From: Bradyrhizobium genomosp. I (2014)
Lineage (GTDB): Bacteria; Pseudomonadota; Alphaproteobacteria; Rhizobiales; Xanthobacteraceae
Direction of reading: 5' to 3'
NCBI RefSeq assembly: GCF_000261685.1
Contig: NZ_AJQE01000175.1
Coordinates: forward strand, 1-64,000
Length of the DNA stretch: 64,000 nucleotides
Positions 11,215 through 40,551 of this stretch are shown here, piece after piece (positions within the stretch are counted from its first letter, which is position 1; every line of letters begins with the position of its first letter). The position numbers and the translations under genes are program-made. The notes under the pieces are model-generated. The model worked only from the letters and a program-made list of their open reading frames with translations. It was not told the origin of the DNA and made no database searches.

Positions 11215-11259
11215 GTGCTGATCCGCCCGGATCCGATCCGACAAAACGAAAGGCAGAGC

Positions 11260-12060
11260 ATGGCAAAGGGCGAGGTTGGGGCGCGGATGAAGCGCAAGAC
11301 CTACGAAAAGGAGCTGGAGAAGCTCCAGGTCCAGCTTTGCCATCTCCAGGAATGGGTGAAGGAGAAGAAGCTGCGCGTCGTGGTGTTCTTCGAAGGCCGC
11401 GATGCCGCGGGCAAGGGCGGCACCATCAAGGCGATCACCGAGAAGGTCAGCCCACGCGTGTTCCGCGTGGTCGCCCTTCCCGCGCCGTCCGACCGTGAGA
11501 AGTCGCAGCTCTTCATCCAGCGCTATATGCAGCACTTCCCGGCCGGCGGCGAAGTCGTGATCTTCGACCGGAGCTGGTACAACCGCGCCGGCGTGGAATA
11601 CGTCATGGGCTTCTGCTCTCCGGAGGACCACAAGCGGTTCCTCACGCTGTGCCCGCAGATGGAGAAGCATCTCGTCGAGAGCGGGATCATCCTGATCAAG
11701 ATCTGGCTTGAGGTCGGGATGGAGGAGCAGGAGCGGCGGTTTCGAGCCAGGATCGACGATCCATTGCGGCAGTGGAAACTGAGCCCGATGGACACGGAGT
11801 CGTATCGGCGCTGGTACGACTATTCCAAGGCCCGCGATCTGATGTTTGGAGCCACGAGTTCGGAGCATGCGCCGTGGACCATCGTTCGGTCCGACGACAA
11901 GCGGCGGGCGCGGCTCAATTGCATCGCGCATCTTCTGGATTCGATCCCGTACAAGCGCATCAAGAGGGACAAGGTCAAGCTGCCGCCGCGCTCCGGGAAA
12001 GGGCGTTACAACGACCAGGCGAGCCTGAACGGGATGAAGTTCGTGGAAGAGCGGTACTGA
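11260..12060 (+). CDS. ppk2: Polyphosphate kinase 2 (PPK2 family)
   Basis: 266 aa, close to one-domain PPK2 proteins. Walker A is GRDAAGKGG at residues 46-54; the Walker B/lid signature FDRSWYNRAGVEYVMGFC follows, then the arginine-rich lid (QERRFRARIDDPLRQWKLS). PPK2 enzymes move phosphate between polyphosphate and nucleotides, usually to make GTP/ATP from GDP/ADP or AMP. I prefer ATG 11260 (AAGG upstream) over the 15-codon longer frame. Under a FixK box it would supply nucleotide phosphorylation from stored polyphosphate when respiration is limited; that role is inferred. Confidence 0.93.
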   Translation: MAKGEVGARMKRKTYEKELEKLQVQLCHLQEWVKEKKLRVVVFFEGRDAAGKGGTIKAITEKVSPRVFRVVALPAPSDREKSQLFIQRYMQHFPAGGEVVIFDRSWYNRAGVEYVMGFCSPEDHKRFLTLCPQMEKHLVESGIILIKIWLEVGMEEQERRFRARIDDPLRQWKLSPMDTESYRRWYDYSKARDLMFGATSSEHAPWTIVRSDDKRRARLNCIAHLLDSIPYKRIKRDKVKLPPRSGKGRYNDQASLNGMKFVEERY

Positions 12061-17044: not shown

Positions 17045-17104
17045 GTCTCTCTCCCGGTCCTCGGCAAATGACGCGGGATCGTGGCCTTCCGCTCGTAGGC
17101 TTCG

Positions 17105-17118
17105 TTGATTCAAGTCAA
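17105..17118 (-). promoter_or_regulatory. FixK/FNR-type box for the decarboxylase-exchanger operon
   Basis: TTGATTCAAGTCAA (other strand TTGACTTGAATCAA). Centred 41.5 nt upstream it would set a start near 17070 and a leader of about 26 nt to the ATG at 17044. The other strand reads the 3' end of SulP at 17179, so only leftward use makes sense. Confidence 0.75.
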
Positions 17119-17178
17119 CGGTCCGAGGCTTCTGATTAGCCGTCTTCAGAGCGCGCGTACCGCAGCGCAAAAAGGACC

Positions 17179-18876
17179 TCACCGCCCTCTTTGGTCAGGG
17201 CCGCCAAGAACGCTGTCGAGCGTCCGCAACCACTGTGAGCTGTCGGTCTTTTCAGCCAGCCCTTCCGCACGCAGGAGGTCGCGCAGCTGCGCGTGCGCGC
17301 CGACGATGCAGAGTGCGATGTGACGAGAGGCGAGCTCGTCGTAGAGATCGTGCAGCATGCGCGCGCCGGCGAGATCGATATAGGGCGATGCCGAGAGATC
17401 GCAGACGACCAGCCTGATCTCAGCCGATTTCCCCAGCGCGTTCAACACTGCCTCCAGGACCGTCTCTGCGTTGATGTAGAGCAGCGAGGCTTCAGGGCGG
17501 AAAGCGATCACACCAATCAGCGGCTCGACCCCTTCATGCCTGGCGCTGTCGGAGTAGCGGCCGGTTCCCCGCAGGCGGCCGAGAAAGGCGATATTCGGCT
17601 GCGACGCCCGCGCCAGCAGCAGGAAAATCGACGCGATCGCAGCGAGCAGCACGCCTTGAAGAATTCCGAGCAGCAGCACCGCAATCAGGGCGATGGCCGC
17701 TGCATAGAAATCGATCCGGCTGACTTTCCACATGCGGATCAGCGCGGGAATGTCCACCAGCCTGTACACCGCTGCAAATACGATGGCGGCCAACACTGCT
17801 TTCGGCAGGTTGGTCAGGAGGCCGGTGAAGAACAACAGACACAGCGCCAAGGTGACGGAGCAGATCATCACCGCCAGCGGTGTCCGTGCGCCGGCATTGT
17901 CGTTCACGGCCGATTGGGACAGGCCGCCAGCGACGGGATAGCCTTGGCCGAATGCCGCGGCAAGGTTGGCGGCGCCCAGGCCAAGGAATTCCTGCCGGAC
18001 GTCGAGCGCATATCCGTGCTTGGCAGCGAAGCTGCGCGCGGCCGACACGCCTTCGATATAGGCCAGCAACAGGCAACCCGCCGCAATGGGAAACAGCTCT
18101 TCGGGCTCGACCAAGCCGAAGGTCGGAACGGCAAGGGTCGGCAGACCCTCGGGGATCTTGCCGGTGACCGGCACGCCCATGGCAGGCAACCCAAGCAGCG
18201 TGGCCACCACGATCGAGAGTGCCACGATGCTGATGCCCACCGGCAGGCCCGGCAGGTGCCGCTCGCCGAGCAGCAACAGCAGGAGCGCAACGGCACCGAC
18301 CGTCAATACGAGCAGATTTGTATCGCCAAACTGGCCTGCGATGTGGATTGCCCGATCGAAGAAATTGCGACCGCCGCCAGAAACACCGAACAGAGCTGGC
18401 AATTGGCTCATAATGATGGTGAGCCCGGCACCCGCCTTGAAGCCGACCAGGATGCTGTCGCTGACCAGGCGGACGAGACTCGAGAGCTTGAACAGCCAGG
18501 CGATCAGGCATAGCAGCGCTACTGCGCAGGCGACTAGGCTTGCAATTTGCGCATAGCGAACCGGATCGCCTGCTGCGAGCGAACCGACGGTGCCCGCGAT
18601 CATCAGCGAGATGGCCGAGGTCGGACCAATGGCAAGCTGGCGCGACGATCCGAGCAGCGCATAGCCGATGCCACCAAGAATATAGCCATAAACCCCGGTC
18701 TGCGGCGGTAAGCCAGCAAGGCCCGCATACGCGAGCGACACTGGAATCGCGTACGCGGCCAGTGTCACGCCCGCCACTGCGTCGGAGGAGAGCCAAGCGA
18801 TCCGATACCCGGAAAGCCAACTAAACGGCGAAAACAGACGCGTCCAGCCAACCCGCGGTTCAGACGGCGGCTTCAT
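17179..18876 (-). CDS. SulP family anion transporter with STAS domain
   Basis: About 565 aa. Multiple spans in the SulP order are visible, with the family stretch AYAIPVSLAYAGLAGLPPQTGVYG, then GPTSAISLMIAG and GYPVAGGLSQSAVNDNAGART. A C-terminal STAS domain starts near the segment LLYINAETVLEAVLNAL and contains CDLSASPYIDLAGARML. Substrate may be sulfate, bicarbonate or another anion. The ATG at 18876 overlaps the stop of the DUF1275 gene (ATGA), so the two are co-translated. Confidence 0.9.
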   Translation of the reverse strand: MKPPSEPRVGWTRLFSPFSWLSGYRIAWLSSDAVAGVTLAAYAIPVSLAYAGLAGLPPQTGVYGYILGGIGYALLGSSRQLAIGPTSAISLMIAGTVGSLAAGDPVRYAQIASLVACAVALLCLIAWLFKLSSLVRLVSDSILVGFKAGAGLTIIMSQLPALFGVSGGGRNFFDRAIHIAGQFGDTNLLVLTVGAVALLLLLLGERHLPGLPVGISIVALSIVVATLLGLPAMGVPVTGKIPEGLPTLAVPTFGLVEPEELFPIAAGCLLLAYIEGVSAARSFAAKHGYALDVRQEFLGLGAANLAAAFGQGYPVAGGLSQSAVNDNAGARTPLAVMICSVTLALCLLFFTGLLTNLPKAVLAAIVFAAVYRLVDIPALIRMWKVSRIDFYAAAIALIAVLLLGILQGVLLAAIASIFLLLARASQPNIAFLGRLRGTGRYSDSARHEGVEPLIGVIAFRPEASLLYINAETVLEAVLNALGKSAEIRLVVCDLSASPYIDLAGARMLHDLYDELASRHIALCIVGAHAQLRDLLRAEGLAEKTDSSQWLRTLDSVLGGPDQRGR

Positions 18877-19697: not shown

Positions 19698-21386
19698 ATG
19701 GACACCGTCAGGTGGATCATCTCCACCGCTCCGGAAATCTTTCTTTTGCTTGCTGTCGCCGTTGGCACGATCCTGGGCCGCATCAGGATCCGCGGCTTCT
19801 CGATCGGCACCACTGCCTGCACGCTCATCGCTGCCGTGCTCATCGGTCAACTCGGCAGCTTCGCGTTTCCGTCGGTGCTGCGGGTCATCCTGTTCAGCCT
19901 GTTCGTATTCACGATCGGCTACAAATCCGGACCGGAATTCTTCGCATCCTTGAGCATCCGCACTCTGGCCCAGGTCGCCATGGCGCTCGTGCTCGGCGGC
20001 ACGGGCTTGATCATCGTTCTGGCATTTGCCTTTACGGTGGGGCTCGACCCAGGCACCGCGTCTGGCCTCGCCGCGGGCGCACTGACGCAATCCTCCGTCA
20101 TCGGCACTGCCTCGGGTGCCCTGGCGCAACTTGGGCTGTCCAAGGCTTTGCTCGAGCAGCAAGAGGCGAATATCGCTGCCGGCTACGCCGTCACCTACGT
20201 TCTCGGATACATCCTGACGCTCCTCTACGTCCCGTTCGTCGCGCCCAAGCTGATGGGTGTCAACCTCAAGGACGAAGCCAAGAAGCTCGAGATCGAGCTT
20301 GCCGGGGGCGAGCCTCCCAAGACCGAGAACCTGCACTATCGCAAATTCCAGGCGCGCGCCTATCGCGTCTCGGCGGCCGCGGGCCGAACCGTGAAGGCGA
20401 TCGAGGGGGAGATCGGCAGCCGGACGGTGATCGAGCGCATCGTGCGTCACGGAGCCGACATTGAGCCGCATCTGGACACCGTGCTCGAGACCGACGACGA
20501 CATCGTGATCGCCGGGCGGACAGCGGTGATCGTGGCCGCACGGCCCGTGATCGGCACCGAGATCGACGCCGACGAGATCCTGAAGGCGATGCCGGGCAAT
20601 GTGGTCGACGTGCTGGTGGACAACCGCAAGCTCCACGGCCGTTCGGTCCAGGACGTGGCCGATCGCGTCGGCAGCAATGCGCGCGGCGTGTTCCTGCGGA
20701 CCCTGACGCGGATGGGGCGCGAGGTGCCTCTTAGTGCGGACACGCGCATCTATGTGGGCGACGTCATGACGCTGGTCGGCACCAGCCGCAACATCGAACG
20801 CGCAGCCGCGCAAGTCGGACAGATCTTGCGCGCCGGCGACCGCACCGACATCGCCTTTCTCGCGGCCGGCATTGCCGCCGGCCTGCTGGCCGGCCTGCTC
20901 AGCTTCAAGTTCGGGAGCGTCGCGCTGACGCTCGGCGGCGGAGGCGGCGCCTTGATCGCGGGCCTCGTCTGCGGCTGGTTGCGGTCACGCTGGCCGACGA
21001 TGGGTGCGATGCCGCCCGCCGCGCAGCAGACACTGAGCGACCTGGGCCTCGGCGGCTTCATTGCCGCCATCGGCCTCGGCAACGGCCATGCCGCCTGGAT
21101 CGCGATCCAGGCGCATGGCTTCTTGCTGGTCGGCATGGGTCTTGTCGTCACGCTTGTGCCGCTGATGGTGGCGACGCTGTTCGCCTATCACGTGCTGCGC
21201 ATGAATCCAGTCGTCGCCTGCGGCGCACTGGCAGGAGCCATGACAGTCGACGCCGCCGTCACGGGCGCCTGCGAAGTCGCCGAAAGCCAGACGCCGGTGC
21301 TCGGCGTCGCCGTGCCCTATGCAGTGGGGAACGTCGTTCTGACGGTGCTCGGCCCGATCATCGTAGCCGCGACTTTTGCCGGATGA
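19698..21386 (+). CDS. aspT: AspT-like aspartate:alanine exchanger family transporter (copy 2)
   Basis: 562 aa, same architecture as the protein at 12578-14278: an N-terminal membrane half (LLLAVAVGTILGRIRIRGFSIG), paired TrkA-C-like domains (about residues 205-370), and a C-terminal membrane half ending ACEVAESQTPVLGVAVPYAVG. The two copies are clearly diverged, so this is not a recent duplication. It heads an operon with a secreted hydrolase-like protein (10 nt later) and an IalB-like protein, not a decarboxylase, so its substrates may differ from copy 1. Confidence 0.88.
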   Translation: MDTVRWIISTAPEIFLLLAVAVGTILGRIRIRGFSIGTTACTLIAAVLIGQLGSFAFPSVLRVILFSLFVFTIGYKSGPEFFASLSIRTLAQVAMALVLGGTGLIIVLAFAFTVGLDPGTASGLAAGALTQSSVIGTASGALAQLGLSKALLEQQEANIAAGYAVTYVLGYILTLLYVPFVAPKLMGVNLKDEAKKLEIELAGGEPPKTENLHYRKFQARAYRVSAAAGRTVKAIEGEIGSRTVIERIVRHGADIEPHLDTVLETDDDIVIAGRTAVIVAARPVIGTEIDADEILKAMPGNVVDVLVDNRKLHGRSVQDVADRVGSNARGVFLRTLTRMGREVPLSADTRIYVGDVMTLVGTSRNIERAAAQVGQILRAGDRTDIAFLAAGIAAGLLAGLLSFKFGSVALTLGGGGGALIAGLVCGWLRSRWPTMGAMPPAAQQTLSDLGLGGFIAAIGLGNGHAAWIAIQAHGFLLVGMGLVVTLVPLMVATLFAYHVLRMNPVVACGALAGAMTVDAAVTGACEVAESQTPVLGVAVPYAVGNVVLTVLGPIIVAATFAG

Positions 21387-22918: not shown

Positions 22919-23584
22919 TCAGGCGTCGTACTCGGCAAGTCCATTGCGGTCGAGCAACACGATCTGCCGCTGAGTCGCCCCTTCGAACTTCAGCATCTTC
23001 CGGTCGCGCAGCGTGGAGCAGGTGCGCGAGACCGTCTCAAGCGTCAATCCGAGATAATCGGCGATGTCGCGACGGCTCATTGGCAGCACCAAGACCTTGG
23101 GATGGCCGAGCCGCTCGTCGATTTCGAGCAGGAACGCGGCCACGCGCTCCAGTGCCGTCTTTCGTCCCAGCAGAAGCATGTGATTTTCCGCATGCTGCAG
23201 GTTCCGCGTCACGAGACCAAGAAATATCGAGGCGCCCGACTCCCGGCTTCGCATCGTCTCGAGAAGGCTCCGTCGCTTGGTGATACGCACCCTGGTTTCA
23301 ACGATCGCTTCAGCAGTGAATCGATGGGATGCGCCATTATCGAGCCCGAACATGTCGCCGGGCAGGTGGAACGAACTGATCTGGCGACGGCCGTCCGATA
23401 GCAGCTTGTAGGTGCGTACTGCGCCGGAGATGATCTGATAGACGTACTCCGTCTCCTCTCCTTCGCCGAAGACTTCCGTTCCTCTGCGGTATCGAAATTC
23501 ACTGCAGAACACGCGCTCGCCTGCGAGTGCTGCGAGATGCCCGTCAACCGGACGGATGCTGGAGGTGTTGGTCCTGAGCAGCAT
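22919..23584 (-). CDS. FixK-type Crp/Fnr family transcriptional regulator (copy 1)
   Basis: 221 aa. Cyclic-nucleotide-binding-fold N-terminus (DYVYQ-type stretch EYVYQIISGAVRTYKLL, RQISSFHLPGDMFG), a long dimerisation helix with HMLLLGRKTALERVAAFLL, and a helix-turn-helix with LPMSRRDIADYLGLTLETVSR. E-x-x-S-R is the FNR/FixK base-reading signature for TTGA half-sites. It lacks the four-cysteine Fe-S cluster of FNR; only Cys27 and Cys189 are present, and Cys189 lies right in the recognition helix. Its own upstream region carries a weaker FixK-like site (23646-23659), suggesting auto- or cross-regulation. Confidence 0.92.
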   Translation of the reverse strand: MLLRTNTSSIRPVDGHLAALAGERVFCSEFRYRRGTEVFGEGEETEYVYQIISGAVRTYKLLSDGRRQISSFHLPGDMFGLDNGASHRFTAEAIVETRVRITKRRSLLETMRSRESGASIFLGLVTRNLQHAENHMLLLGRKTALERVAAFLLEIDERLGHPKVLVLPMSRRDIADYLGLTLETVSRTCSTLRDRKMLKFEGATQRQIVLLDRNGLAEYDA

Positions 23585-25715: not shown

Positions 25716-26351
25716 CTATTCTTTGAGCCCGTCCGGATCAACCAAGCCAAGTCGCTCCGCGATCGACACAAGTTCTGCGAGCGAATGGACCCGCATCTTC
25801 TCCATCACCTGGTGTCGATGTGCTTTTATCGTTCGCTCCGTCGTTCCGAGTTCGTGCGCAATTTGCTTGTTGATCTTGCCATGCACGACCAGATCGAAAA
25901 CCTGCCGTTCGCGGGGTGTCAGGGACGACACGAGCGCGCGAAATGCGTCGAGCCTGCTGCGCTGGCTCTGCGACACATTCTGGCGCGACATGGCGCGCTC
26001 TATCGCATCGATCAATTGCTCTGACGAGACCGGTTTCGTCAGAAAATCCTCGGCCCCGGCCTTGATCGTACGCACGGTCGTCGCGGTATCCGCATAGCCG
26101 GTAACAAAGATGATCGGCAACGTCGAACCGATCTCGATCAACCGGCTTTGTAGATCGGGACCGCTCAAGCCCGGTATCTTCACGTCGAGCAGCACGCAAG
26201 CGGGCTGCTCGACGCTCGGCAGACGCCCGAGCAATTCCTCCGCCGATGAATACGTTGCGACGTCGTAACCCGCCAGCCTCAGCCGGCGCTCTATCGCCGT
26301 CCGAAACGACGCATCGTCATCTACCACATGAACCAGGCCAGGCAATTCCAC
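25716..26351 (-). CDS. FixJ-family two-component response regulator
   Basis: 211 aa. Receiver domain with acidic pocket VVDDDASF, phospho-acceptor in LLDVKIPG, Thr/Lys at FVTGYAD and FLTKPV; then a LuxR/FixJ-type helix-turn-helix (LTPRERQVFDLVVHG, ELGTTERTIKAHRHQVMEKM). FixJ proteins activate fixK in the low-oxygen cascade when phosphorylated by FixL. No FixL-type kinase is adjacent, so its partner is encoded elsewhere; the kinase at 6469-8376 is one candidate. It is divergent from the copy-2 FixK gene, a natural target. Confidence 0.92.
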   Translation of the reverse strand: MELPGLVHVVDDDASFRTAIERRLRLAGYDVATYSSAEELLGRLPSVEQPACVLLDVKIPGLSGPDLQSRLIEIGSTLPIIFVTGYADTATTVRTIKAGAEDFLTKPVSSEQLIDAIERAMSRQNVSQSQRSRLDAFRALVSSLTPRERQVFDLVVHGKINKQIAHELGTTERTIKAHRHQVMEKMRVHSLAELVSIAERLGLVDPDGLKE

Positions 26352-26695
26352 CTCTTAGCCGCGAGACCCTTGCCGGGCGTCCCTTGTGCTAGACGCCAGC
26401 GAAGTCAGTCAAATCAGAGGCAACTCCGTCAATCTGAACGACATTGTGCACAGCAAAACGGTTCAAATCGAAACATCGCTTCAAGTCGTGCATATCACTT
26501 GTCGGTCTTCTCATTCCGCGCACGCGACTTCGCCCCTGTCCCAAGGTACAATGTCCCCAGAGACAATGGACGAGAATATCTTCTTTAGTCGTAAATCAAC
26601 CCTGGCGGGAATGGGATAGCGCGGCGCATTCCCGCATTGGAATTCCAGTCGATTCTGATCTGAGACCAATTCAACGATTCGTTGAGGAGTTGGCC
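26352..26695. promoter_or_regulatory. 344-bp divergent region between FixJ-like and FixK-like genes
   Basis: No open frame with a good start is visible. No canonical TTGAC-N4-GTCAA site is present, unlike most promoters around it, so the copy-2 FixK gene may be controlled by the adjacent FixJ-like regulator instead. A TCAACGATTCGTTGA palindrome lies about 30 nt before the ATG (26670-26684). Placement of FixJ sites cannot be called by eye. Confidence 0.4.
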
Positions 26696-27379
26696 ATGTT
26701 TGTGCGCATCACAACCGATTCCACGCACCGTCCGAATTCACTTCGCGACCTTGGAATGACCAGCGGCTCGAATGCGACAGTTAGTTTGAGCGAATTTGCT
26801 TACAGGAAAGGAACCGAAATTTACGGCGAGAAGGAGCCCGCCGATTACGTGTATCAGGTCAAGACGGGCGCGGTGCGAAGCTACAAGCTCCTCTCTGACG
26901 GGCGGCGCCAAATCGGCGCATTTCACCTCGCCGGCGATATCTTCGGACTGGAGAACGGCAATTCGCACCGCTTCACGGCGGAGGCGATCGTGGACACCAC
27001 CGTCCGGCTGATCCGCCGGCAAACCCTGGAGTTGGTGGCCGACAGCGATCCCGTCGTTGCCAACAACCTGCTCAACATGACGACGAACAACCTCCAGCAC
27101 GCCGAAGACCACATGCTGCTGCTGGGGCGCAAGACATCGCTGGAGCGCGTCGCCGCTTTCGTGCTCGAGATGGACCAGCGCCTGACCGGAGCCGGCGTGA
27201 TAGCTCTGCCGATGTCGCGCCGCGACATTGCCGACTATCTCGGCCTGACGCTGGAGACGGTCTCGCGCGCTCTATCGCGGTTGCATGAACTCGGCATCAT
27301 CGGCTTTCTGGGGAATACGCAACGCCAGATCGTGCTGTCGGACCGTCGCAGGCTCACCACGATCGATCTGCAGGGCTGA
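26696..27379 (+). CDS. FixK-type Crp/Fnr family transcriptional regulator (copy 2)
   Basis: 227 aa. Closely related to the protein at 22919-23584 across the sensor fold (DYVYQVKTGAVRSYKLLSDG), the dimer helix (HMLLLGRKTSLERVAAF) and the helix-turn-helix (LPMSRRDIADYLGLTLETVSRAL). It has no cysteine at all, so it cannot carry an Fe-S cluster or use the thiol switch described for FixK2. ATG 26696 has GAGGAG 7 nt upstream; the longer frame to 26444 runs through the promoter. Its 3' end overlaps the convergent channel gene by 26 bp. Confidence 0.93.
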   Translation: MFVRITTDSTHRPNSLRDLGMTSGSNATVSLSEFAYRKGTEIYGEKEPADYVYQVKTGAVRSYKLLSDGRRQIGAFHLAGDIFGLENGNSHRFTAEAIVDTTVRLIRRQTLELVADSDPVVANNLLNMTTNNLQHAEDHMLLLGRKTSLERVAAFVLEMDQRLTGAGVIALPMSRRDIADYLGLTLETVSRALSRLHELGIIGFLGNTQRQIVLSDRRRLTTIDLQG

Positions 27380-31562: not shown

Positions 31563-32489
31563 ATGCCCTTCCTCAGCCACGGCTCGTACCGGATTCGCTA
31601 CGAGCTTGACGGCCCTGCCGGCGCGCCGGCCTACGTGCTCGTGAACGGTCTCACGCAATATGCCGAGCTATGGATCGCCTATCGCGACGCGCTCGTCGCA
31701 CGGCGATTCCGCGTCGCAACCTTCGATCTGCTCGGTCAAGGCGAGTCCGACAAGCCCGCCCTCTTCATCAGCCAGGACGATCAGGTTGCAGCCCTGCACC
31801 TCCTGATCCAGGAGCTCGGCAGCGGGCCCGTGTTCCTGAGCGGCATCAGCTTCGGCGGTCTGATCGCGCTGCGCTATGCCATTGCACATGGCGAGCGATT
31901 GGCCGGGCTGGTGCCGATGAGCTGCTTTGCCGAGCTGCCACCGCAACTTTTCCTGCTCGGCAACGCGCTGCGCGCCGGCCTGATCCTCGGCGGGACGAGC
32001 TATCTGCAGGATCTGCTGCTGCCGATGAATGTCTCCGATCAATGGCTCGCGCCGGTGCTGGACAAGCTCGACAGCGTGAAACGGCAGGGCTGGCTCGTCA
32101 ACGACGTTTACGCCCTGCAGAATCTGATGGAGTCCTTTCTCGACTTCCAACCGCTCACGTCGCAACTGCCGTCGATCGGCGTGCCGACGATGATCCTGAA
32201 CGGTGAGTTCGACTTCCTCACCCCGCGCGCCCTGCACGAGACATTGCGCGTTCAGATTCCCGACAGCACCCTCGTCATCGTCCCGCGGGCCTATCATGCC
32301 TTCACGCTGGAGAAGCCGGCGCTGACGGCCGATCTGCTCGCCCGCTTCGCCGATGACGTGTTGGCCGGGCGCTGGCAGGGCAAAAAGGCCGTCTGGATCG
32401 CCCCGGAAGAGGCCGGTGGCGAGCTCATGCCGTTTCCAGCGGGTTACGATCATCTCCGTGCGATTCCAGTCCAGGGGACAACCGCATGA
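31563..32489 (+). CDS. Alpha/beta hydrolase
   Basis: 308 aa, no signal peptide. Core features: DLLGQGESDKP, nucleophile elbow SGISFGG, acid segment NGEFDFLTP and VPRAYHAF for the histidine. I chose ATG 31563 since translation from 31506 would start too close to the FixK box. It overlaps the next gene by 4 nt (ATGA). Substrate unknown. Confidence 0.87.
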   Translation: MPFLSHGSYRIRYELDGPAGAPAYVLVNGLTQYAELWIAYRDALVARRFRVATFDLLGQGESDKPALFISQDDQVAALHLLIQELGSGPVFLSGISFGGLIALRYAIAHGERLAGLVPMSCFAELPPQLFLLGNALRAGLILGGTSYLQDLLLPMNVSDQWLAPVLDKLDSVKRQGWLVNDVYALQNLMESFLDFQPLTSQLPSIGVPTMILNGEFDFLTPRALHETLRVQIPDSTLVIVPRAYHAFTLEKPALTADLLARFADDVLAGRWQGKKAVWIAPEEAGGELMPFPAGYDHLRAIPVQGTTA

Positions 32490-33097
32490 GCGCGTTCTTC
32501 GGCCCGATGGATGCGGAGGGCCGCGTGCCCGCCCGGCAGCAGACCCGCGTCGCGAGCTTCCTGGTCTCGGCTCACGGTGCGCTTGGGCGTCGCTTCGCTC
32601 TCGCCCTGCCTCCGAGGCTGGAATCAGCCTGGCAAGCCGAATTGAACGCGCAGTTCTACAACGAGTCCGAGATCGTTTCTCTGCTCCTGCGCTCAACCAG
32701 TTGGACGCCTGACCTCGCCTTGGCCTATCTCGCCGCGACTTGGGAGACCGCTTGGTTTCCTTCACCGGCGGAGGGGATTCCAGATCCGACCCTGGCTCTT
32801 GCCGTGGATCTTGCGACACTCGCTCACGCTGTCCACGCCGGCATCAGGCCGGCGGCGCTGCTTCCATTGGAGGCGAACGCGAACGATCCTTTCGCGATGG
32901 CGCTGCGTCGCGTCGAGTTCGAGAGTGGCCGACTGTTGCAGGCGCAAATCATGTTCCTGAAGGGCGAAAGCCTCATGCCGTTTCGCGATGCGGTGAGCAC
33001 CACGCTCGAACGGCGCCACGCCGAGGTGCGCAAGCTATGGCGCGAGATGCTGGAGAGCATCGGTATTTCGCGCAGCGAGAATGATGCGAAGCCTTGA
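32486..33097 (+). CDS. Hypothetical cytosolic protein coupled to an alpha/beta hydrolase
   Basis: 203 aa, largely helical by composition, no signal peptide or clear membrane span. No family recognised. Its ATG overlaps the hydrolase stop, so the two are translationally coupled. Its own TGA stop codon lies inside the next FixK box (33094-33107). Confidence 0.75.
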   Translation: MSAFFGPMDAEGRVPARQQTRVASFLVSAHGALGRRFALALPPRLESAWQAELNAQFYNESEIVSLLLRSTSWTPDLALAYLAATWETAWFPSPAEGIPDPTLALAVDLATLAHAVHAGIRPAALLPLEANANDPFAMALRRVEFESGRLLQAQIMFLKGESLMPFRDAVSTTLERRHAEVRKLWREMLESIGISRSENDAKP

Positions 33098-33107
33098 CCC
33101 AAATCAA
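33094..33107 (+). promoter_or_regulatory. FixK/FNR-type box for the CoA-transferase operon
   Basis: TTGACCCAAATCAA. The TGA within it (33095-33097) is the stop codon of the upstream gene. Class II spacing puts a start near 33142, with the CoA-transferase ATG at 33165. Confidence 0.75.
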
Positions 33108-33164
33108 AGGATCGAGCCCGCCGCCCGCCAACATTCGGCTGACGAACTGACCGGAGCTCCGACC

Positions 33165-33818
33165 ATGAAGGCCGTATCCGTCGAGGAAGCCGTCGCGATG
33201 ATTCCAACCGGCGCGAGCATCATGATTGGCGGCTTCATGGGGGTCGGTACACCGGAACGTTTGCTCGACGAGGTCGTTCGTCAGAAAAAGAGCAACCTCA
33301 CCATCATCAGCAACGATGCGGCCACGCCCGGTAAAGGCGTCGGCAAGCTGTTCGACGCAGCGCTGGTGTCGCGCCTGACCGCCACCCACATCGGCCTCAA
33401 TCCCAAGGCGCAGCAGCAGATGCTGACCAACCAGGTCGCGATCGATCTGATTCCGCAAGGCACCTTCGCCGAGCGTATTCGCGCCGGCGGCTGCGGGCTC
33501 GGCGGCGTGCTCACGCCGACCGGCGTCGGCACGCTGGTCGCGGAAGGCAAGCGCCAGATCGAGGTCGACGGCAAGCCGTATCTGCTCGAAACCGCGCTGC
33601 GCGCGCAGTTCGCGCTGGTGCATGCCTTCCTCGCCGACTACCTCGGCAATCTCGCCTACGCGCTGACTTCCCGCAATTTCAACCCGGTGATGGCGATGGC
33701 GGCCGATACCGTGATCGTGACTGCGGAGCACATCGTGCCCGTTGGCGTCATTGCGCCCGATCACGTGATGACGCCTGCACCGCTCGTCGACTATCTCATC
33801 ACCAATTCGAACGGGTGA
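33165..33818 (+). CDS. 3-oxoacid/acetate-type CoA-transferase, subunit A
   Basis: 217 aa, the usual length of the alpha subunit. It has the family I CoA-binding loop GGFMGVGTPE near the N-terminus. The true start is ATG 33165; the longer frame from 33081 includes the FixK box. The beta subunit follows after 4 nt. AtoD/ScoA-type enzymes move CoA between acyl-CoA and short-chain acids such as acetate or acetoacetate. Confidence 0.9.
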   Translation: MKAVSVEEAVAMIPTGASIMIGGFMGVGTPERLLDEVVRQKKSNLTIISNDAATPGKGVGKLFDAALVSRLTATHIGLNPKAQQQMLTNQVAIDLIPQGTFAERIRAGGCGLGGVLTPTGVGTLVAEGKRQIEVDGKPYLLETALRAQFALVHAFLADYLGNLAYALTSRNFNPVMAMAADTVIVTAEHIVPVGVIAPDHVMTPAPLVDYLITNSNG

Positions 33819-33822
33819 ATTC

Positions 33823-34473
33823 ATGGACGCACAGGAGATCATCGCCCGGCGCGTCGCGCAGGAACTCAGGCCCGGCAACCTCGTCAATCTCGGCATCGGC
33901 ATTCCGACGCTCGTCTCCAATTATGTCTCGCCCGACTTGAAAGTGTTTTTCCAATCCGAGAACGGATTGATCGGCACCGGCCCGATCCCCGAGCAGGGCC
34001 TGGAGCATCCTCTCCTCACCGACGCCGGCGGCCGGCCGATCAGTGCGCTGCCGGGCGCAAGCACGTTCGACAGTGCGATGTCGTTCGGCTTGATCCGCGG
34101 GGGGCACGTCGATGTCACCGTGCTCGGCGGCCTGCAGGTTGATGCGCACGGGCTTCTCGCCAATTGGATGATCCCCGGCAAGATGGTCCCGGGGATGGGC
34201 GGCGCGATGGACCTCGTCAGCGGTGCGAAGCGCGTCATCGTCGCCATGCAGCACGCGGCCAAGGGCAAATCGAAGATTGTAGAGAGATGCAACCTGCCCC
34301 TGACCTCTTCGCGGCCGGTGAGCCTGGTCGTCACCGATCTCGCCGTGATCGGCTTTCCCGATGGGAAGGCGACGCTGCTCGAGACCGCTCCAGGCATCGG
34401 CGTCGGAGAGGTCCTGGCGGTCACGGAGGCCGAACTCGTCGTTGGCGGTACCGTCCCCGAAATGAAGATTTGA
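33823..34473 (+). CDS. 3-oxoacid/acetate-type CoA-transferase, subunit B
   Basis: 216 aa. The catalytic glutamate lies in QSENGLIGTG, and GIGIPTLVSNYV at the N-terminus is typical. With subunit A it could activate acetoacetate or acetate, tying into acetate from AckA or into polyhydroxybutyrate turnover. Exact acid not deducible. Confidence 0.9.
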   Translation: MDAQEIIARRVAQELRPGNLVNLGIGIPTLVSNYVSPDLKVFFQSENGLIGTGPIPEQGLEHPLLTDAGGRPISALPGASTFDSAMSFGLIRGGHVDVTVLGGLQVDAHGLLANWMIPGKMVPGMGGAMDLVSGAKRVIVAMQHAAKGKSKIVERCNLPLTSSRPVSLVVTDLAVIGFPDGKATLLETAPGIGVGEVLAVTEAELVVGGTVPEMKI

Positions 34474-34487
34474 GCGGGCGAGGCAAC

Positions 34488-34946
34488 ATGCGGATATTCA
34501 GCGACTTCAAGGAGATCAAGGCGGCGGTCGGCACCGAAATCGGTGTCAGCGACTGGATCGAGATCAGCCAGGAGCGCATCAATCAGTTTGCGGAAGCCAC
34601 CTGCGACGAGCAGTGGATTCACGTCGATCAGGAGCGCGCCAAGGCGGAAATGCCCGGCGGCAAGACCATCGCGCACGGATTGTTGTCGCTGGCGCTCGCG
34701 CCACTGTTCATTCGATCCGTGATCGGACTGAAAGGCCTGCGCAATACGTTGAACTATGGCGCGGACCGGATCCGCTACCTGGCGCCAGTGCCAGCGGGAT
34801 CCAAGCTACGAGGGCGCGTTACCATCGCGGAAACGGAGGACGTACCACCCGACGGCCTGCGCGTGAACTATCATCTCGTAATCGAAATCGAAGGCGGCAA
34901 AAGGCCGGCCTGTGTCGCCGAGCTGATCGCACTGCACTACCGGTAG
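34488..34946 (+). CDS. MaoC-like (R)-specific enoyl-CoA hydratase
   Basis: 152 aa hot-dog fold protein. The hydratase-2 signature region reads FAEATCDEQWIHVDQERA with GKTIAHGLLSLAL, giving the Asp/His catalytic pair. GAGG is upstream of ATG 34488. It follows the CoA-transferase by 14 nt. Such enzymes produce (R)-3-hydroxyacyl-CoA, a PHA precursor, or act in beta-oxidation. Confidence 0.9.
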   Translation: MRIFSDFKEIKAAVGTEIGVSDWIEISQERINQFAEATCDEQWIHVDQERAKAEMPGGKTIAHGLLSLALAPLFIRSVIGLKGLRNTLNYGADRIRYLAPVPAGSKLRGRVTIAETEDVPPDGLRVNYHLVIEIEGGKRPACVAELIALHYR

Positions 34947-34969: not shown

Positions 34970-35239
34970 TCAATATGGCTCGCGGTAGTCGCGGTAGCTT
35001 CCGAAGGGGCGCCTTTGCGCCTGAGCGAAGTACGGATTTATCTCGCACATGGCCGCCCGGCCCAATGCTGACGCCCGACATTGCGGGATCGACGTGTAGC
35101 TGCAATCAATCCACTCACCGCCGCCCACAGACCCCTCATAGACTTTCATGCAGACCGGATACCGTGGGTCATAGGTCTGGGCCTGTCTCGATACAGAACC
35201 GATGACCAGCAACAACGTGCTCAGCACGGCGATACGCAT
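34970..35239 (-). CDS. DUF3551-like small secreted protein
   Basis: 89 aa from the ATG at 35239, which has GGAGG upstream. Signal peptide, then YPVCMKVYEG, WIDCSYTSIPQCRASALGRAAMCEINPYF, the four-cysteine pattern of DUF3551, a family abundant in Bradyrhizobium. It follows fabI by 28 nt on the same strand and may be the last gene of that operon. Function unknown. Confidence 0.8.
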   Translation of the reverse strand: MRIAVLSTLLLVIGSVSRQAQTYDPRYPVCMKVYEGSVGGGEWIDCSYTSIPQCRASALGRAAMCEINPYFAQAQRRPFGSYRDYREPY

Positions 35240-35267
35240 GTTACCTCCAGTATCCGACCGGTCTGCC

Positions 35268-36056
35268 TCAATCGATGATATGATAGCCGCCATCGATGTA
35301 GAGCACACCACCGGTCATCAGCTTGGCCCCGTCGAGCGCCAGGAATGCGGTGGCGTTGCCGACATCGTCGATGCTCACCAGGCTGCGCGCCGGCGCCTTC
35401 GATTGGGCCTTGTCCATCAGCTCGTCGAATTCGGGAATGCCGGAGGCTGCACGGGTGGCCAGCGGTCCCGGCGAGATCGCATGCACCCGGATCCCCTTCG
35501 GGCCCAACTCGGCCGCGGCGTAACGAACGGCGGATTCCAGCGCCGCTTTCGCAACGCCCATGATGTTGTAGTTCTCGACCACCATCTGGCTGCCGTAGTA
35601 GGTCATGGTGAACATCGTGCCACCGTTCTTCATCAGCGGCTCGGCCAGATGGGCCATCCGCAGGAAGGACCAGCAGGAGACCTCCATGGTCTTGAGGAAA
35701 CCTTCGCGGCCAACGTCGACGACGCGACCGTGCAGCGCTTCCTTGGGCGAGAAGGCGATCGAGTGCAGCAGAAAATCGAGCTGCCCCCACTCCTTCGCGA
35801 TCCTTTCAAAAACCTGCTCGGTCTGGCCTTCGACCATGACGTCGAGCGGCATGAAGATCGGAGCCTCCAGCGCCTGCGCGAGCGGCTCGACATGTTTCCT
35901 GGCGCGGTCGTTCAGATAGGTGACCGCCAGCTCGGCACCCAACGCGCGGAAGGCCCTTGCGCAGCCCCAGGCGATGGATTGGTCGTTGGCGATGCCGACC
36001 ACGAGTCCCTTCTTGCCCTTCAGGGCAACCTTGGTCTCCGGGTATACGGGAATCAT
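35268..36056 (-). CDS. fabI: Enoyl-[acyl-carrier-protein] reductase, FabI type
   Basis: 262 aa SDR protein. [16 protein letters not shown] is the FabI cofactor loop; the catalytic Tyr-x6-Lys set is in [12 protein letters not shown]. It reduces enoyl-ACP with NADH in fatty-acid synthesis. A FabI gene inside an acetate-kinase operon is odd: it overlaps ackA by 4 nt (ATGA). It is probably an extra copy, not the housekeeping enzyme; that needs the rest of the genome. Confidence 0.92.
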
Positions 36057-37267
36057 GACACCCTCTCTTGTTTGGGGTTGCTCGATGGTGTGTTCATCAG
36101 CAGCGACAGCGTATGCTGCGCGATCATCAGCTCTTCGTCGGTCGGCACCACATAGACCGGAATGAGACTCTCAGGGCGCGAGATCAGCCGCGAATGGCGC
36201 GAATTTTCCGTCTGATCGAGCGTCACGCCCAGCCAGCCGAGTTGCCCAGCCACGCGCGCGCGAACGGTTGCGGAATTCTCGCCGATGCCGGCCGTGAAGA
36301 CGAAGGCGTCGAGGCCCTGCAGGGCGGCCGCGAGCATGCCTGCGCTGAGGCCGATCCGGTACACGAAATAGTCGATAGCGAGTTTCGCCTTGGGATCCTC
36401 GCTCTTCTCCAGCTCGCGCATGTCGTTGCTGATGCCGGAAAGGCCCTTCAGGCCGCAATCGCGATAGAGGAAGTCCTGCACCTTCGTGGCCGACATTCCC
36501 TTCTCGGACATGAGGTAGAGCACGACGCCGGGATCTAGCTGGCCCGGACGAGTTCCCATCGGCAGACCGTCGAGCGCGGTGAAGCCCATGGTGCTCTCGA
36601 CGCTTCGTCCGTCCATCAGTGCGCACATCGAGGCGCCGCTGCCGAGATGAGCAACGATCACCCGGCGTTTCGCGATGTCAGGCGCGGCACTCGGCAGGGT
36701 CCTCGCAATGTATTCATAGGACAGGCCGTGAAAGCCGTAGCGTCGCACGCCCTCCGCGTGAAGCTGATGCGGGATCGCATAGTGGTCGGCAAGCGCGCCG
36801 TGGGTGCGGTGAAAAGCAGTATCGAAGCAGGCGACCTGGGGCAGGCTCGGAAACTTCGTCAGGATCGAACGGATCGGCGATAGATTGTGTGGCTGATGCA
36901 ACGGCGCGAGATTGATGAAGCGCTCCAGCCGGGCTACCACGCCGTGGTCGATCAAGACAGGCTTGTCGTAATCGGGACCGCCATGCACCACGCGATGGCC
37001 GACCGCAATCGGGTGGATGCGGAGCTCCTCTCGCAGCCACTCGCCGGCCACGCCCATTGCCGTTGAAACGTCCGGCACTGCTTCGATCGGATAGGCTCGG
37101 TCGGCCAAGGGGTCGCCGCCCCCGCCGCTCGCCTTCAGCCGCGGACGACTGCCTATGCCGTCCATCTGGCCCTTGATCTGCCGCCGCAACCGGCCCTCGC
37201 TCTCGACCGAGAAGATCTGGAATTTGACGCTGGAGGAGCCGGCGTTGACGACGAGGATCGTATCCAT
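36053..37267 (-). CDS. ackA: Acetate kinase
   Basis: About 404 aa. Starts [16 protein letters not shown]; the acetokinase signatures [14 protein letters not shown] and [11 protein letters not shown] are all present. It makes ATP and acetate from acetyl phosphate. I chose ATG 37267 over the GTG at 37276 that overlaps the pta stop. Directly downstream of pta and coupled to fabI. Confidence 0.95.
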
Positions 37268-37272
37268 GGCGA

Positions 37273-38235
37273 TCACGCCGCGACTGTTGGGGCGTGCTGG
37301 CGACGCGCATTGGCGTAGAGCGAGGCCACGGCACAGGAGGCCATGCGCGCACGCGGCGTATCGGCACGCGATGTCAAGACGATCGGCACGCGGGCACCGA
37401 GCACGACGCCGGCACCATCAGCCTTCGCGAAATAAGCGAGATTCTTCGCCAGCATATTGCCGGCCTCGAGGTCCGGAACGACCAGGATCTGCGCTCGGCC
37501 GGCGACGTCGGACTTGATGCCCTTGATCCGCGCGGCCTCGATATCGATCGCATTGTCAAAGGCGAGCGGTCCGTCGAGCACACCGCCGGTGATCTGGCCG
37601 CGATCAGCCATTTTGCACAGCGCAGCGGCCTCGATCGTCGATGGAATCTTGGAAGTGACGGTCTCGACCGCGGACAGGATAGCGACCCGCGGCGCCTTGC
37701 CGAAACCTGCCTGTGTGTAGAGATCGATGGCGTTCTGGATGATGTCGCGCTTGGCGTCGAGGTCGGGAAAGATGTTGATGGCGGCGTCCGTCACGAACAA
37801 GGTCTCGGCATAAGCCGGCACGTCCATGACGAACACATGGCTGATCCGGCGGTCGGTACGCAGACCTCCCGCTTTCGCCGTGACGGCACGCATCAGCTCG
37901 TCGGTGTGCAGGCTGCCCTTCATCAGCATCTCGCCTTTCGCGGCGTGGATCAGCTCGACCGCCTTGGCAGCGGCTTCCTCGCTATGCGCGGCATCGATGA
38001 TTTCGAACCCCGAGATGTCGAGGCCGAATTTCCTTGCGGTGTCCCTGACCTTGGCTTCGGGTCCGACCAGGGTGGGCCGGATGATGCCGGCTTGTGAGCT
38101 GTCGACGGCCCCGCGCAGGGCGGTCTCGTCGCAGGGATGCACCACGACGGTCGGAACCGGAGGGACGGTCTTGGCCTTCGCGATCAACCGGTCATATTTG
38201 CCGGGAGATTGCGATTGCGCTTTATCGGCTGACAT
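37273..38235 (-). CDS. pta: Phosphate acetyl/butyryltransferase
   Basis: 320 aa, the short Pta/Ptb form without the MaoC or DRTGG domain. Features: [34 protein letters not shown] and [26 protein letters not shown]. Converts acetyl-CoA (or another acyl-CoA) and phosphate to acyl phosphate for AckA. Second gene of the DUF3141-pta-ackA-fabI operon. Confidence 0.93.
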
Positions 38236-38264
38236 GATGTTGCTCCCGATGCTTTCAACGGCCG

Positions 38265-40481
38265 CTACGATGCTTTCGCCCTGGGATCGAAAGGGGCAAC
38301 ATTGGTCGCTTCTCCCGTATCGATGCCAAGGATAGTGGCGATCCGCTGGAGGCGGATCGCGGGCTCGCCGCTGATCTCGCCGCTGGCGGAGAGCACGTCA
38401 CGCATCGACGCGAACAGGGCCCGGCGCTGATTGATGTCCTCGGGCAACAGTTTCGGGATCGCCGCGAGCGCTCCTTCCCGATCGAGCAGCAGCATGAAGA
38501 ACTGCTCGCGGACCAGCATCTTGAATTCGGAGAGCGCCAGACGCGGACCGCCGTAATCCTGGCGCACTCGGCGCAGCGCCTCGATGCTGCGTTCGTCGAC
38601 CATACCGCGCGCAGAGCCGATATAGAGCAGACTGCGAATAGCCGCCTCGCGGGCGCCGCCCTCGCCGATCCTGGACCTCAGTTCGGCGATCCGGTTCTCG
38701 AGCATCGCGCGGTGCTCGGCCGACATCTCGCGCCGGCGCGAGGGCTCCGACTTCGGATCGACCCCGAGCGCCGCCTGAACGGCAGGCGATCCATACACAT
38801 TGAGAAAGATCGTTTCGCTCAGCGCCTCCGTCGCGTCCCGCCAGCTATCCAGCGCGTGGACGATCTGCTTGGACATCTGTTCCTGGAACGCCAGGAATGG
38901 ATTGTCCTTCGACGCCGGCTTGCGATTGTCCTCGATCGCCTCCGCGGCGGACTTGACCGTCGCCATCAGCGGATTCTGGCTGCTGAATGCCTCATACTGC
39001 AGCCGCAGCGGATGCAGGTTGCGCATCGTTTCGGCCAACTGCCCGCTCACGACGTTCTTGATCCAGGGCTGGACGAACTTCCGGTAGGCGGCCAGATTGA
39101 TCTCCGAAACGCGCTTGGCGGCGGCGAAGCGCCGCTCGTCCTCCGGTGAATTGCCACCCATGGCTCGGATGTCGTCGAGCGTCCGCGCCTCGCAGCGCAT
39201 GACCCATTTGCCGACAACGAGATCCGAACTCGTCGTCTGCTCGTCCTTGGCCTCGAAAGTTGCCTCATAGAGCCCCGGCGGCAGCACATCGATCAAATCG
39301 ATGTTCTCGGAGAATTCCGCGTGCTCCTTCTTGGCGACGCCGCCGGAGACGAAGATGCCGAGATGGCCGACGCTCTGGTGAACCGTATAGACGATGGTCT
39401 GCCCGTAGGCCCTGATCTCGTCGACGTCCGCGTAGCAGTCGAGAATCCAGTCCAGCGCCTGCTGTGGCGGGGTGACGTTGTCGCCCTCGGAACAGAACAC
39501 CAGTATGGGCGATCGAATGTTGCGGAGATCGACCTTCTGGCCATCCGACATCTCGATGTTGCCAGCGGCGAGATTGTTGCCGATGAAGAGCTCATCGACG
39601 ATGAACTGGATTTCCTCCGCGTTCAGATTGACGTGCCCGCCCCACCAGCGTTCGAATTCGAGGTAGCGGCTCGCCTCGGTGTCGATCTTCGAATAGACGT
39701 TGTACTGCTTGGTCCACAGCGTGTTCGACGGATTCTGGTTCTCGAAATTCTGCACCAGCCAGGCGCCGTCGAACTTGCCCGCGCCAAGATCGCTGGCGAG
39801 CGCCGTCAGCCAGCTTCCGCCCAGCAGTCCGCCCGAGTAACGCATCGGATACTTGCCATGCACACCGGCCCAATAGGCGAGTGGCGCGCCGGCGATGATG
39901 ATCGGCCCGAACAGTTCCGGCCGCAGGGACGCCAGGATCATCACGGCCCAGCCGGCCTGGCAATTGCCGATCACGCAGGGTTTGCCGTCGGCTTTTGGAT
40001 GCAGGCTGACGACCCTCTCGATGAACAACGCCTCGGCCCGCGCGATGCGCTCTATGGTCTGTCCCGGCATCGGTTCCGGCAGAAAGCCGATGAAATAGCA
40101 GGGATGGCCCGCCTTCATCGCCACCCCGATCTCGCTGTCAGCTTTGAAGCCGCCAATGCCCGGGCCGTGTCCGGCGCGCGGATCGACCACGATAAACGGC
40201 CGCTGTTCGAGATCGATCTCGACTCCCTTGGGAGGAATGATCCGGACCAGGGCATAGTTGACCGGTTCGTCGAGCTTACGGCCGTCGACGATCAACTCGG
40301 CGGCGTATTGCAGGACATGCGGCGCCGTCTGCGCGACATGTTCACGGTATTGGTCGCCGCGCCGGCGCATGATGTCCAGGAACAGCACACTGCGCTGGCC
40401 TGCATCGATCATATATTCGACCGCCGAAGCAACGAGCCCGGACATCGGACCGTCTGGCAGATCTGGAGTTTCCATCGACAT
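38265..40481 (-). CDS. DUF3141 protein, polyhydroxyalkanoate-synthase-like
   Basis: 738 aa. The first 400 residues have an alpha/beta-hydrolase fold with a lipase-like box GNCQAGW, whose nucleophile is Cys174 as in PHA synthases, an acid segment FCSEGDNVTPP and VGHLGIF for the histidine. The rest is helical and specific to DUF3141 proteins. Polymerase activity is not established for this family. GAGG lies upstream of the ATG. First gene of the operon behind the 40538 box. Confidence 0.88.
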   Translation of the reverse strand: MSMETPDLPDGPMSGLVASAVEYMIDAGQRSVLFLDIMRRRGDQYREHVAQTAPHVLQYAAELIVDGRKLDEPVNYALVRIIPPKGVEIDLEQRPFIVVDPRAGHGPGIGGFKADSEIGVAMKAGHPCYFIGFLPEPMPGQTIERIARAEALFIERVVSLHPKADGKPCVIGNCQAGWAVMILASLRPELFGPIIIAGAPLAYWAGVHGKYPMRYSGGLLGGSWLTALASDLGAGKFDGAWLVQNFENQNPSNTLWTKQYNVYSKIDTEASRYLEFERWWGGHVNLNAEEIQFIVDELFIGNNLAAGNIEMSDGQKVDLRNIRSPILVFCSEGDNVTPPQQALDWILDCYADVDEIRAYGQTIVYTVHQSVGHLGIFVSGGVAKKEHAEFSENIDLIDVLPPGLYEATFEAKDEQTTSSDLVVGKWVMRCEARTLDDIRAMGGNSPEDERRFAAAKRVSEINLAAYRKFVQPWIKNVVSGQLAETMRNLHPLRLQYEAFSSQNPLMATVKSAAEAIEDNRKPASKDNPFLAFQEQMSKQIVHALDSWRDATEALSETIFLNVYGSPAVQAALGVDPKSEPSRRREMSAEHRAMLENRIAELRSRIGEGGAREAAIRSLLYIGSARGMVDERSIEALRRVRQDYGGPRLALSEFKMLVREQFFMLLLDREGALAAIPKLLPEDINQRRALFASMRDVLSASGEISGEPAIRLQRIATILGIDTGEATNVAPFDPRAKAS

Positions 40482-40537
40482 GTTCCGACCTCTCTCGTCC
40501 GCACATTCATAGAAAGAGCCGGTTCGAACGGGGGACG

Positions 40538-40551
40538 TTGACTTAGGTCAA
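40538..40551 (-). promoter_or_regulatory. FixK/FNR-type box for the DUF3141-pta-ackA-fabI operon
   Basis: TTGACTTAGGTCAA. Class II spacing gives a start near 40503 and a leader of 22 nt before the ATG at 40481. The stop codon of the upstream AI-2E-type gene (40548-40550) lies inside the box. Confidence 0.78.

Follow-up and report, generated by a model that had tools for sequence, protein, structure and literature searches.

The 64,000-nucleotide stretch of Bradyrhizobium genomosp. I DNA analyzed here (contig NZ_AJQE01000175.1, positions 1 to 64,000; hereafter the window), which belongs to a 7.9 Mb genome, carries on its minus strand four consecutive genes encoding a DUF3141 protein, an enzyme annotated as Pta, the kinase AckA and the enoyl reductase FabI (Table 1). 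The genes are closely packed, with a 29-nt gap between the DUF3141 gene and pta and an ATGA overlap shared by ackA and fabI; pta and ackA are separated by 5 nt if the kinase starts at the ATG at 37267, or overlap by 4 nt if it starts at the GTG at 37276. These coordinates were re-derived and match the strand and spacings given in an initial annotation of this DNA, and the operon structure and conserved association claimed there are supported by the results described below. A second operon, ctfA-ctfB-maoC, converges on the first from the plus strand, and each of the two is preceded by its own FixK-type box. A scan for sigma-70 promoters and terminators gave no signal exceeding that of shuffled sequences. 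A possible TerB-like C-terminal domain was noted by eye.

Table 1. Features of the four-gene operon, the convergent operon and the FixK-type boxes (window positions; scores in bits, model cut-offs in parentheses where available).
Feature	Position	Strand	Remarks
DUF3141 (PF11339) protein	38265..40481	-	738 aa; PHA-synthase-like alpha/beta hydrolase, Cys174-Asp334-His373; passes PF11339, 970.9 (29.7)
Phosphotransbutyrylase-type phosphotransacylase, annotated pta	37273..38235	-	320 aa; NF008852 516.2 (413), TIGR02706 306.6 (410.5), TIGR00651 66.9 (311.2)
ackA, acetate/propionate-family kinase	36053..37276	-	407 aa, GTG start (ATG alternative 37267); TIGR00016 349.4 (293.4)
fabI, operon-clade FabI-family enoyl reductase	35268..36056	-	262 aa; NF005717 444.7 (337); Asp211 = E. 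coli Arg204
FixK/FNR-type box TTGACTTAGGTCAA	40538..40551	-	upstream end 70 nt before DUF3141 ATG
FixK-type box TTGACCCAAATCAA	33094..33107	+	71 nt before ctfA ATG at 33165
ctfA, 3-oxoacid/acetate CoA-transferase subunit A	33165..33818	+	TIGR02429 214, above cut-off, for the longer reading frame 33081-33818; start taken as the ATG after the box
ctfB, 3-oxoacid CoA-transferase subunit B	33823..34473	+	TIGR02428 301.9, above cut-off
MaoC-family hydratase, candidate (R)-specific enoyl-CoA hydratase	34491..34946	+	PF01575 67.8
Eight FixK-type boxes	6420, 10682, 17105, 19623, 25558, 33094, 40538, 43664

With respect to conservation, 344 relatives of the DUF3141 protein were found in named genomes, and the 80 best of these were retained (almost all named Bradyrhizobium, the closest 93% identical) together with a broader set of 59 further DUF3141 loci from 53 genomes, sampled across class, order and phylum, in which some stretches end at contig ends. 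A phosphotransbutyrylase-type enzyme (PTB), an acetate kinase (ACK) and a FabI accompany DUF3141 in 72 of the 80 related loci (individual loci are cited below by our own L numbers); two of the three do so in one further locus, and none lies within the stored flank in seven. The idea that the jicamae/lablabi group had lost ptb-ackA-fabI was considered and rejected for L082, L086, L090 and L091, in which the coordinates of ptb fall just past the stored stretch or on its edge. When the genomes of the remaining partnerless loci were searched, ptb was found in those of L089 and L108 and was not found in that of L077. In a Bradyrhizobium subgroup, from which one locus was read (L086), a pyruvate formate-lyase (PFL) cassette lies between DUF3141 and ptb; this interval (L086:8246-13944) encodes, on the opposite strand, a formate/nitrite-type transporter, an Asp-Ala exchanger-type permease, a radical S-adenosylmethionine protein that, judged by its place, is of the PFL-activase type, and a PFL-like protein.

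In the broader set, all three partners lie within 6 kb of DUF3141 in 32 of the 59 loci, and the four genes occur there in eight different orders. That the neighbors are kept despite rearrangement argues for a common function of DUF3141, PTB, ACK and FabI. The four-gene cluster is real and widely conserved, and the neighborhood comparison that the initial annotation had proposed came out in its favor. De novo clustering of neighboring genes added polyphosphate kinase 2 (PPK2; 9 loci), a short-chain dehydrogenase/reductase (SDR) cluster (11 loci) and smaller groups. At the level of whole genomes, a polyhydroxyalkanoate (PHA) synthase is found in 11/11 genomes with a full-length DUF3141 vs 182/278 others among 289 genomes of the class (p = 0.018), and a PTB domain in 10/11 vs 46/278 (p = 3e-7; counted by hand, excluding 26 genomes that matched only the hydratase part); the genomes in both comparisons are not independent.

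The box pattern used here, TTGAY-N4-RTCAA, occurs eight times in the window against 0.12 expected from 100 order-1 Markov simulations, so that the window as a whole resembles an island of the low-oxygen regulon. In 77 of the 80 Bradyrhizobium-type loci (all except L107, L108 and L110), a box is present no more than 200 nt upstream of DUF3141. Its offset falls between -61 and -79 in 71 of them, as against 3.8 loci predicted from the box density of this sample. The FixK-type box noted ahead of the operon in the initial annotation is therefore real and recurs beyond chance. Each of the 62 loci that carry ctfA likewise has a box no more than 160 nt upstream of that gene (offsets vary with the reach of the alignment). 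It is probable that a FixK-type regulator binds at these sites and switches on both operons at low oxygen. As a general feature of the cluster, FixK control was rejected: only 4 of 61 more distant loci have a perfect box ahead of one of the four genes, and for this reason such control is probably a lineage-specific addition. The copy on Sinorhizobium pSymA (L111) has a one-mismatch FixK-like box 88 nt before its annotated start. A Pho box pattern allowing up to three mismatches did not match anywhere close to the window operon, with the limit that this pattern is insensitive and also missed the region upstream of the Sinorhizobium operon; its single match in the window is weak and far from the operon, and the count is below chance expectation.

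The convergent operon accompanies the cluster in much of the related set, with ctfAB in 62/80 loci and ctfAB plus maoC in 56/80. That it has a FixK box of its own is new, and it probably belongs to the same pathway as the four-gene operon. A 203-aa reading frame ahead of ctfA (32486-33097) is present in 48/80 loci and matches nothing in Pfam or NCBIfam at E 0.001. Also new is that, in other genomes, the cluster itself takes in FabI, MaoC, CtfAB and 3-hydroxybutyrate dehydrogenase. CtfAB adjoins the kinase or DUF3141 inside the cluster at L190, L191, L193 and L213, and a 3-hydroxybutyrate dehydrogenase scoring above cut-off directly follows ctfAB in L191 and L213; at L192, the gene directly after DUF3141 is 72% identical to the L191 dehydrogenase. 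The dehydrogenases of L191 and L213 are among the four of the 11 SDR genes that were looked up, the others being a KduD-type enzyme (L193) and a protein that passes no shown cut-off (L206). On the contig of L192, a separate locus (L308) reads fabI-ctfA-ctfB-maoC::ptb-ack, and at L307 a stand-alone maoC lies immediately ahead of a fabI on the same strand. MaoC::PTB fusions were not called from reading-frame length alone; NCBIfam confirmed 5/5 putative fusions, and a sixth PTB tested (L195) is without a hydratase part. For the most part, the cluster partners, judged from their families, would catalyze CoA-based steps in 3-hydroxybutyrate metabolism.

In terms of the DUF3141 protein itself, the PHA-synthase-like nucleophile Cys174, recognized in the initial annotation within the motif GNCQAGW, is invariant in 63/63 copies, as are Asp334 and His373, which complete a triad. 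A structure model of the protein (pLDDT 86.2) finds seven PhaC entries as its best structural matches (Z 22.4-24.5 over 291-316 residues at 2.9-3.9 Å), followed by a lipase at Z 21.2 and by lipases from there downwards, and PhaC occupies the first 12 rows of a Foldseek search with the same model. Scores against the curated PhaC models are far below cut-off for both class I (19.7 vs 622.65 bits) and class III (28.9 vs 365.3 bits). DUF3141 thus models as a PHA-synthase fold with an invariant Cys-Asp-His triad, which is new.

The enzyme annotated as Pta passes the model of the PRK11890 phosphate acetyltransferase subfamily (NF008852) and falls under the cut-offs of both the phosphate butyryltransferase (TIGR02706) and the classical phosphate acetyltransferase (TIGR00651) models, and among solved structures it is nearest in sequence to a phosphate butyryltransferase (226.3 bits). 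By these assignments it is a phosphotransbutyrylase-type enzyme, which is recognized here for the first time. The initial annotation held that Pta and AckA yield ATP from acetyl-CoA when respiration fails; the role in ATP and redox balance at low oxygen is plausible, whereas the identity of the first enzyme had to be revised to the PTB type (306.6 vs 66.9 bits). The kinase passes the acetate/propionate model TIGR00016, and a second copy elsewhere in the genome is 45% identical to it. A gain of butyrate specificity in the operon kinases was considered at the site taken as Pro232 of methanosarcinal AckA, which is Ala in 31/39 operon kinases and Pro in the second kinase of the window genome; this contrast is suggestive only and was not used.

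The operon FabI was placed in a tree of 70 of the 72 FabI-like places in 26 DUF3141-bearing genomes (G567:C25 and G735:C1:711712 were left out), in which a branch with 100/100 support separates 31 rows from the other 39. Within the clade of 31, 27 lie in DUF3141 clusters or beside ptb, 2 lie some 8-9 kb from DUF3141 and 2 are elsewhere (L306 and L307). The catalytic Tyr156 and Lys163 (E. coli numbering) are present in 31/31 clade members. The position of E. coli Arg204, which together with its neighbors we take to form the helix that docks acyl carrier protein (ACP), is Asp or Glu in 30/31 clade members and Arg in 34/39 other FabIs, while the Leu195 position is Arg in 31/31 vs Leu in 39/39; the contrast at Lys201 is less clear. 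Over residues 207-218, the mean net charge is -2.1 in the clade vs +0.6 in the others (the rows are related, so that the p-value overstates the contrast). The separate paralogue clade and the charge-reversed docking position make enoyl-CoA a likelier substrate than enoyl-ACP. The operon FabI belongs to a separate clade, not recognized previously, and looks re-purposed for CoA-bound rather than ACP-bound substrates. The initial annotation had this enzyme using NADH to reduce enoyl-ACP, of which the family membership stands and the ACP-bound substrate, given the altered docking site, is the less likely one.

Taken together, these assignments suggest that the operon and the convergent ctfAB-maoC genes form a low-oxygen fermentation module linked to polyhydroxybutyrate (PHB), the reading that we favor, though tentatively, and in which the substrates, the direction of flux and the net products are predicted. 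At low oxygen, the FixK-type regulator would turn on both operons. The PTB-type enzyme would convert acyl-CoA (acetyl-CoA almost certainly, butyryl-CoA probably) to acyl-phosphate, from which the kinase would produce the acid and ATP. MaoC, or the fused hydratase domain in other genomes, would interconvert (R)-3-hydroxybutyryl-CoA and crotonyl-CoA, and the operon FabI would use NADH to reduce crotonyl-CoA or another short enoyl-CoA rather than enoyl-ACP, with crotonyl-CoA giving butyryl-CoA. CtfAB would shift CoA between acetoacetate and short acids, the oxidized half passing through acetoacetate to acetyl-CoA, and DUF3141 would act as a PHA-synthase-like Cys-Asp-His acyltransferase that shuttles 3-hydroxyacyl groups between CoA and polymer. 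On balance, stored 3-hydroxybutyrate would be disproportionated to acetate and butyrate (two units giving two acetate and one butyrate), with NADH balanced and ATP gained. Crotonate-type disproportionation is a known reaction pattern, and the earlier suggestion that the operon could dispose of both acetyl units and reducing power is in keeping with the plausible ATP and redox role. A bolder version, which we consider rather unlikely, holds that this FabI represents a new subfamily of enoyl-CoA reductases that do not depend on ACP and that, with DUF3141, MaoC, CtfAB, the PTB-type enzyme and the kinase, it carries out an intracellular PHB fermentation, switched on by FixK in Bradyrhizobium nodules and low-oxygen soil, with DUF3141 mainly performing CoA-dependent release.

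Several observations weigh against such a fermentation. The kinase belongs to the acetate/propionate family, scoring 45.9 bits as a butyrate kinase against a cut-off of 289.1. Among 17 N-terminal extracts of MaoC::PTB fusions, 11 had a readable motif, and in 9 of these it is GNxNPxH, not GDxNPxH (L205, L206, L207, L209, L210, L191, L193, L213 and L219), so that the fused hydratase may be altered or inactive. DUF3141 stands without partners in 18 of the 59 broader loci, including 7/7 of family f174, and the pfl genes near L086 and the phosphoketolase near L111 would fit simple acetate formation just as well. It is because of these four points (kinase family, hydratase motif, solitary DUF3141 and the pfl and phosphoketolase neighbors) that the fermentation reading is held as tentative and its bolder version as rather unlikely. 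In addition, the clade FabI of L306 has no partner gene in the 15 kb read, L309 (ptb and ack) and L310 (ptb alone) lie away from DUF3141 with no FabI, MaoC or CtfAB beside them, and the scarcity of perfect boxes in distant loci speaks against FixK control as a general part of the scheme. Neither ctfAB nor maoC is listed near the Sinorhizobium operon. In Sinorhizobium meliloti, for which Summers et al. reportedly described an orfA-pta-ackA-fabI operon in 1999, mutants in pta and ackA are said to have had no symbiotic phenotype.

The strongest alternative, which we still regard as somewhat unlikely, is plain acetate overflow, whereby the annotated Pta and AckA would make ATP from acetyl-CoA (or from phosphoketolase-derived acetyl-phosphate) under low oxygen, DUF3141 would tune PHB turnover and FabI would be a spare fatty-acid enzyme, a mere passenger. 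When the genome was scanned for the PTA_PTB domain, the only hit besides this gene was a 775-codon frame, probably a malic enzyme in view of its length and of the malic enzymes among the structure matches; the genome thus seemingly has no other dedicated phosphotransacetylase, which makes plain acetyl-CoA conversion a sufficient use of the enzyme. The phosphoketolase downstream of the operon in Sinorhizobium and the PFL cassette of the Bradyrhizobium subgroup fit the same explanation, as does the published reading of these proteins as an acetate pathway (PMC10888616). FabI is where acetate overflow fares worst: a passenger should not form one clade across classes and gene orders, nor adjoin maoC and ctfAB away from DUF3141, and the change at Arg204 is nearly fixed.

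A module for PHA synthesis, in which acetate and fatty-acid intermediates would feed PHA, DUF3141 would be a PHA synthase of an unusual kind and MaoC would provide (R)-3-hydroxyacyl-CoA, would agree with the fold and triad of DUF3141 and has been proposed for the Burkholderia clusters (PMC8231600). We consider it improbable, because the kinase and phosphotransacylase would then presumably cost ATP while respiration is limited and FabI would be expected to divert enoyl-CoA from PHA; moreover, a class I PhaC is already present in 11/11 DUF3141 genomes, and the NCBIfam PhaC cut-offs are missed by far. Lipid remodeling, in which FabI and MaoC would change membrane-lipid acyl chains under low oxygen or phosphate stress and Pta-AckA would provide an acetyl-phosphate signal, can draw on FabI family membership and on the fact that phosphate starvation induces the Sinorhizobium operon (PMC8231600, PMC5789663), but is very improbable given that the partner enzymes are CoA-based and belong to 3-hydroxybutyrate metabolism and that the FabI docking position is charge-reversed.

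Bradyrhizobium makes PHB, and the job of this polymer under oxygen scarcity is an old question. If PHB disproportionation is what the module performs, rhizobia would gain a fermentative source of ATP together with a sink for NADH, which could help to explain the 118- to 228-fold rise of AckA and Pta in bacteroids of Sinorhizobium NGR234 (AckA up 118- and 182-fold, Pta up 166- and 228-fold; PMC3732241), whose genes probably belong to a counterpart of the DUF3141 operon. A CoA-specific FabI clade would also change the annotation of these proteins, now given as fatty-acid synthesis, and the reading of FabI copy number in inhibitor work.

Elsewhere in the island, an Orn/Lys/Arg-type decarboxylase adjoins a permease of the Asp-Ala exchanger family, and a second such permease follows (12578-14278, 14291-17182 and 19698-21386). 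The distance from a FixK box is about 74-75 nt for both the decarboxylase, whose likely start was put at 17044 by eye, and the second permease; these genes possibly constitute a decarboxylation-driven proton-motive system. A small uncharacterized reading frame and PPK2 (10759-12060) have a FixK box at -77, and PPK2 is also the neighbor seen in nine broader DUF3141 loci. The island further encodes two CRP/FNR-family regulators and a FixJ-like LuxR-type response regulator (22919-23584, 25716-26351 and 26444-27379).

In comparison with known systems, the operon resembles the clostridial butyrate pathway (Ptb-Buk with crotonyl-CoA reduction) in pairing a PTB-type enzyme with a kinase to give acid and ATP, and differs in having an acetate/propionate-family kinase and a FabI-like reductase instead of Bcd/Etf. 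Class I PHA synthases share the fold and the Cys-Asp-His triad of DUF3141 and supply its seven best structural matches, but identity is only ~14% and, of the 738 residues, the match takes in ~38-400 (up to 493 in some rows). The association itself is not new, as a Sinorhizobium operon, Burkholderia clusters and blr3456-blr3459 of B. diazoefficiens are already in print. The statement in the initial annotation that FabI in such an operon and the role of DUF3141 were undescribed is thus wrong for the former; for the latter, a literature search covering few subscription journals found no demonstrated role, nor one for a FabI of the operon type.

Burkholderia group D1 clusters contain phaC, a phaJ-pta fusion, ackA and fabI, and their authors compare them with the Sinorhizobium operon (PMC8231600). 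The gene set is the same, including the hydratase-phosphotransacetylase fusion, but the clusters are interpreted there as PHA synthesis, and the part of the paper available proposes no separate FabI clade or CoA specificity and does not state whether the PhaC is DUF3141. In B. diazoefficiens, blr3456-blr3459 is a predicted operon, with a hypothetical protein preceding blr3457 (pta) and blr3458 (ackA), that is expressed 7.2-fold more strongly at 0.5% oxygen when phaR is mutated, so that PhaR, a PHA regulator, represses it (PMC10888616). By gene order and genus, it is very probably the orthologue of the window operon; the available passages establish the PhaR repression and do not discuss the hypothetical protein or FabI.

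A close parallel outside the genus is the Sinorhizobium pSymA copy, which we infer to be the orfA-pta-ackA-fabI operon of 1999. The same four genes occur in the same order on one strand, closely spaced as in the window, and the products are 69% (DUF3141), 71% (PTB), 62% (ACK) and 78% (FabI) identical; a short second DUF3141 coding sequence upstream (L111:7424-7720) is probably a remnant. Root exudates induce four such genes in two rhizobia (PMC5789663). The genes of the Sinorhizobium operon are transcribed together, and phosphate starvation induces them through PhoB (PMC8231600), whereas the Bradyrhizobium counterpart has a conserved FixK box.

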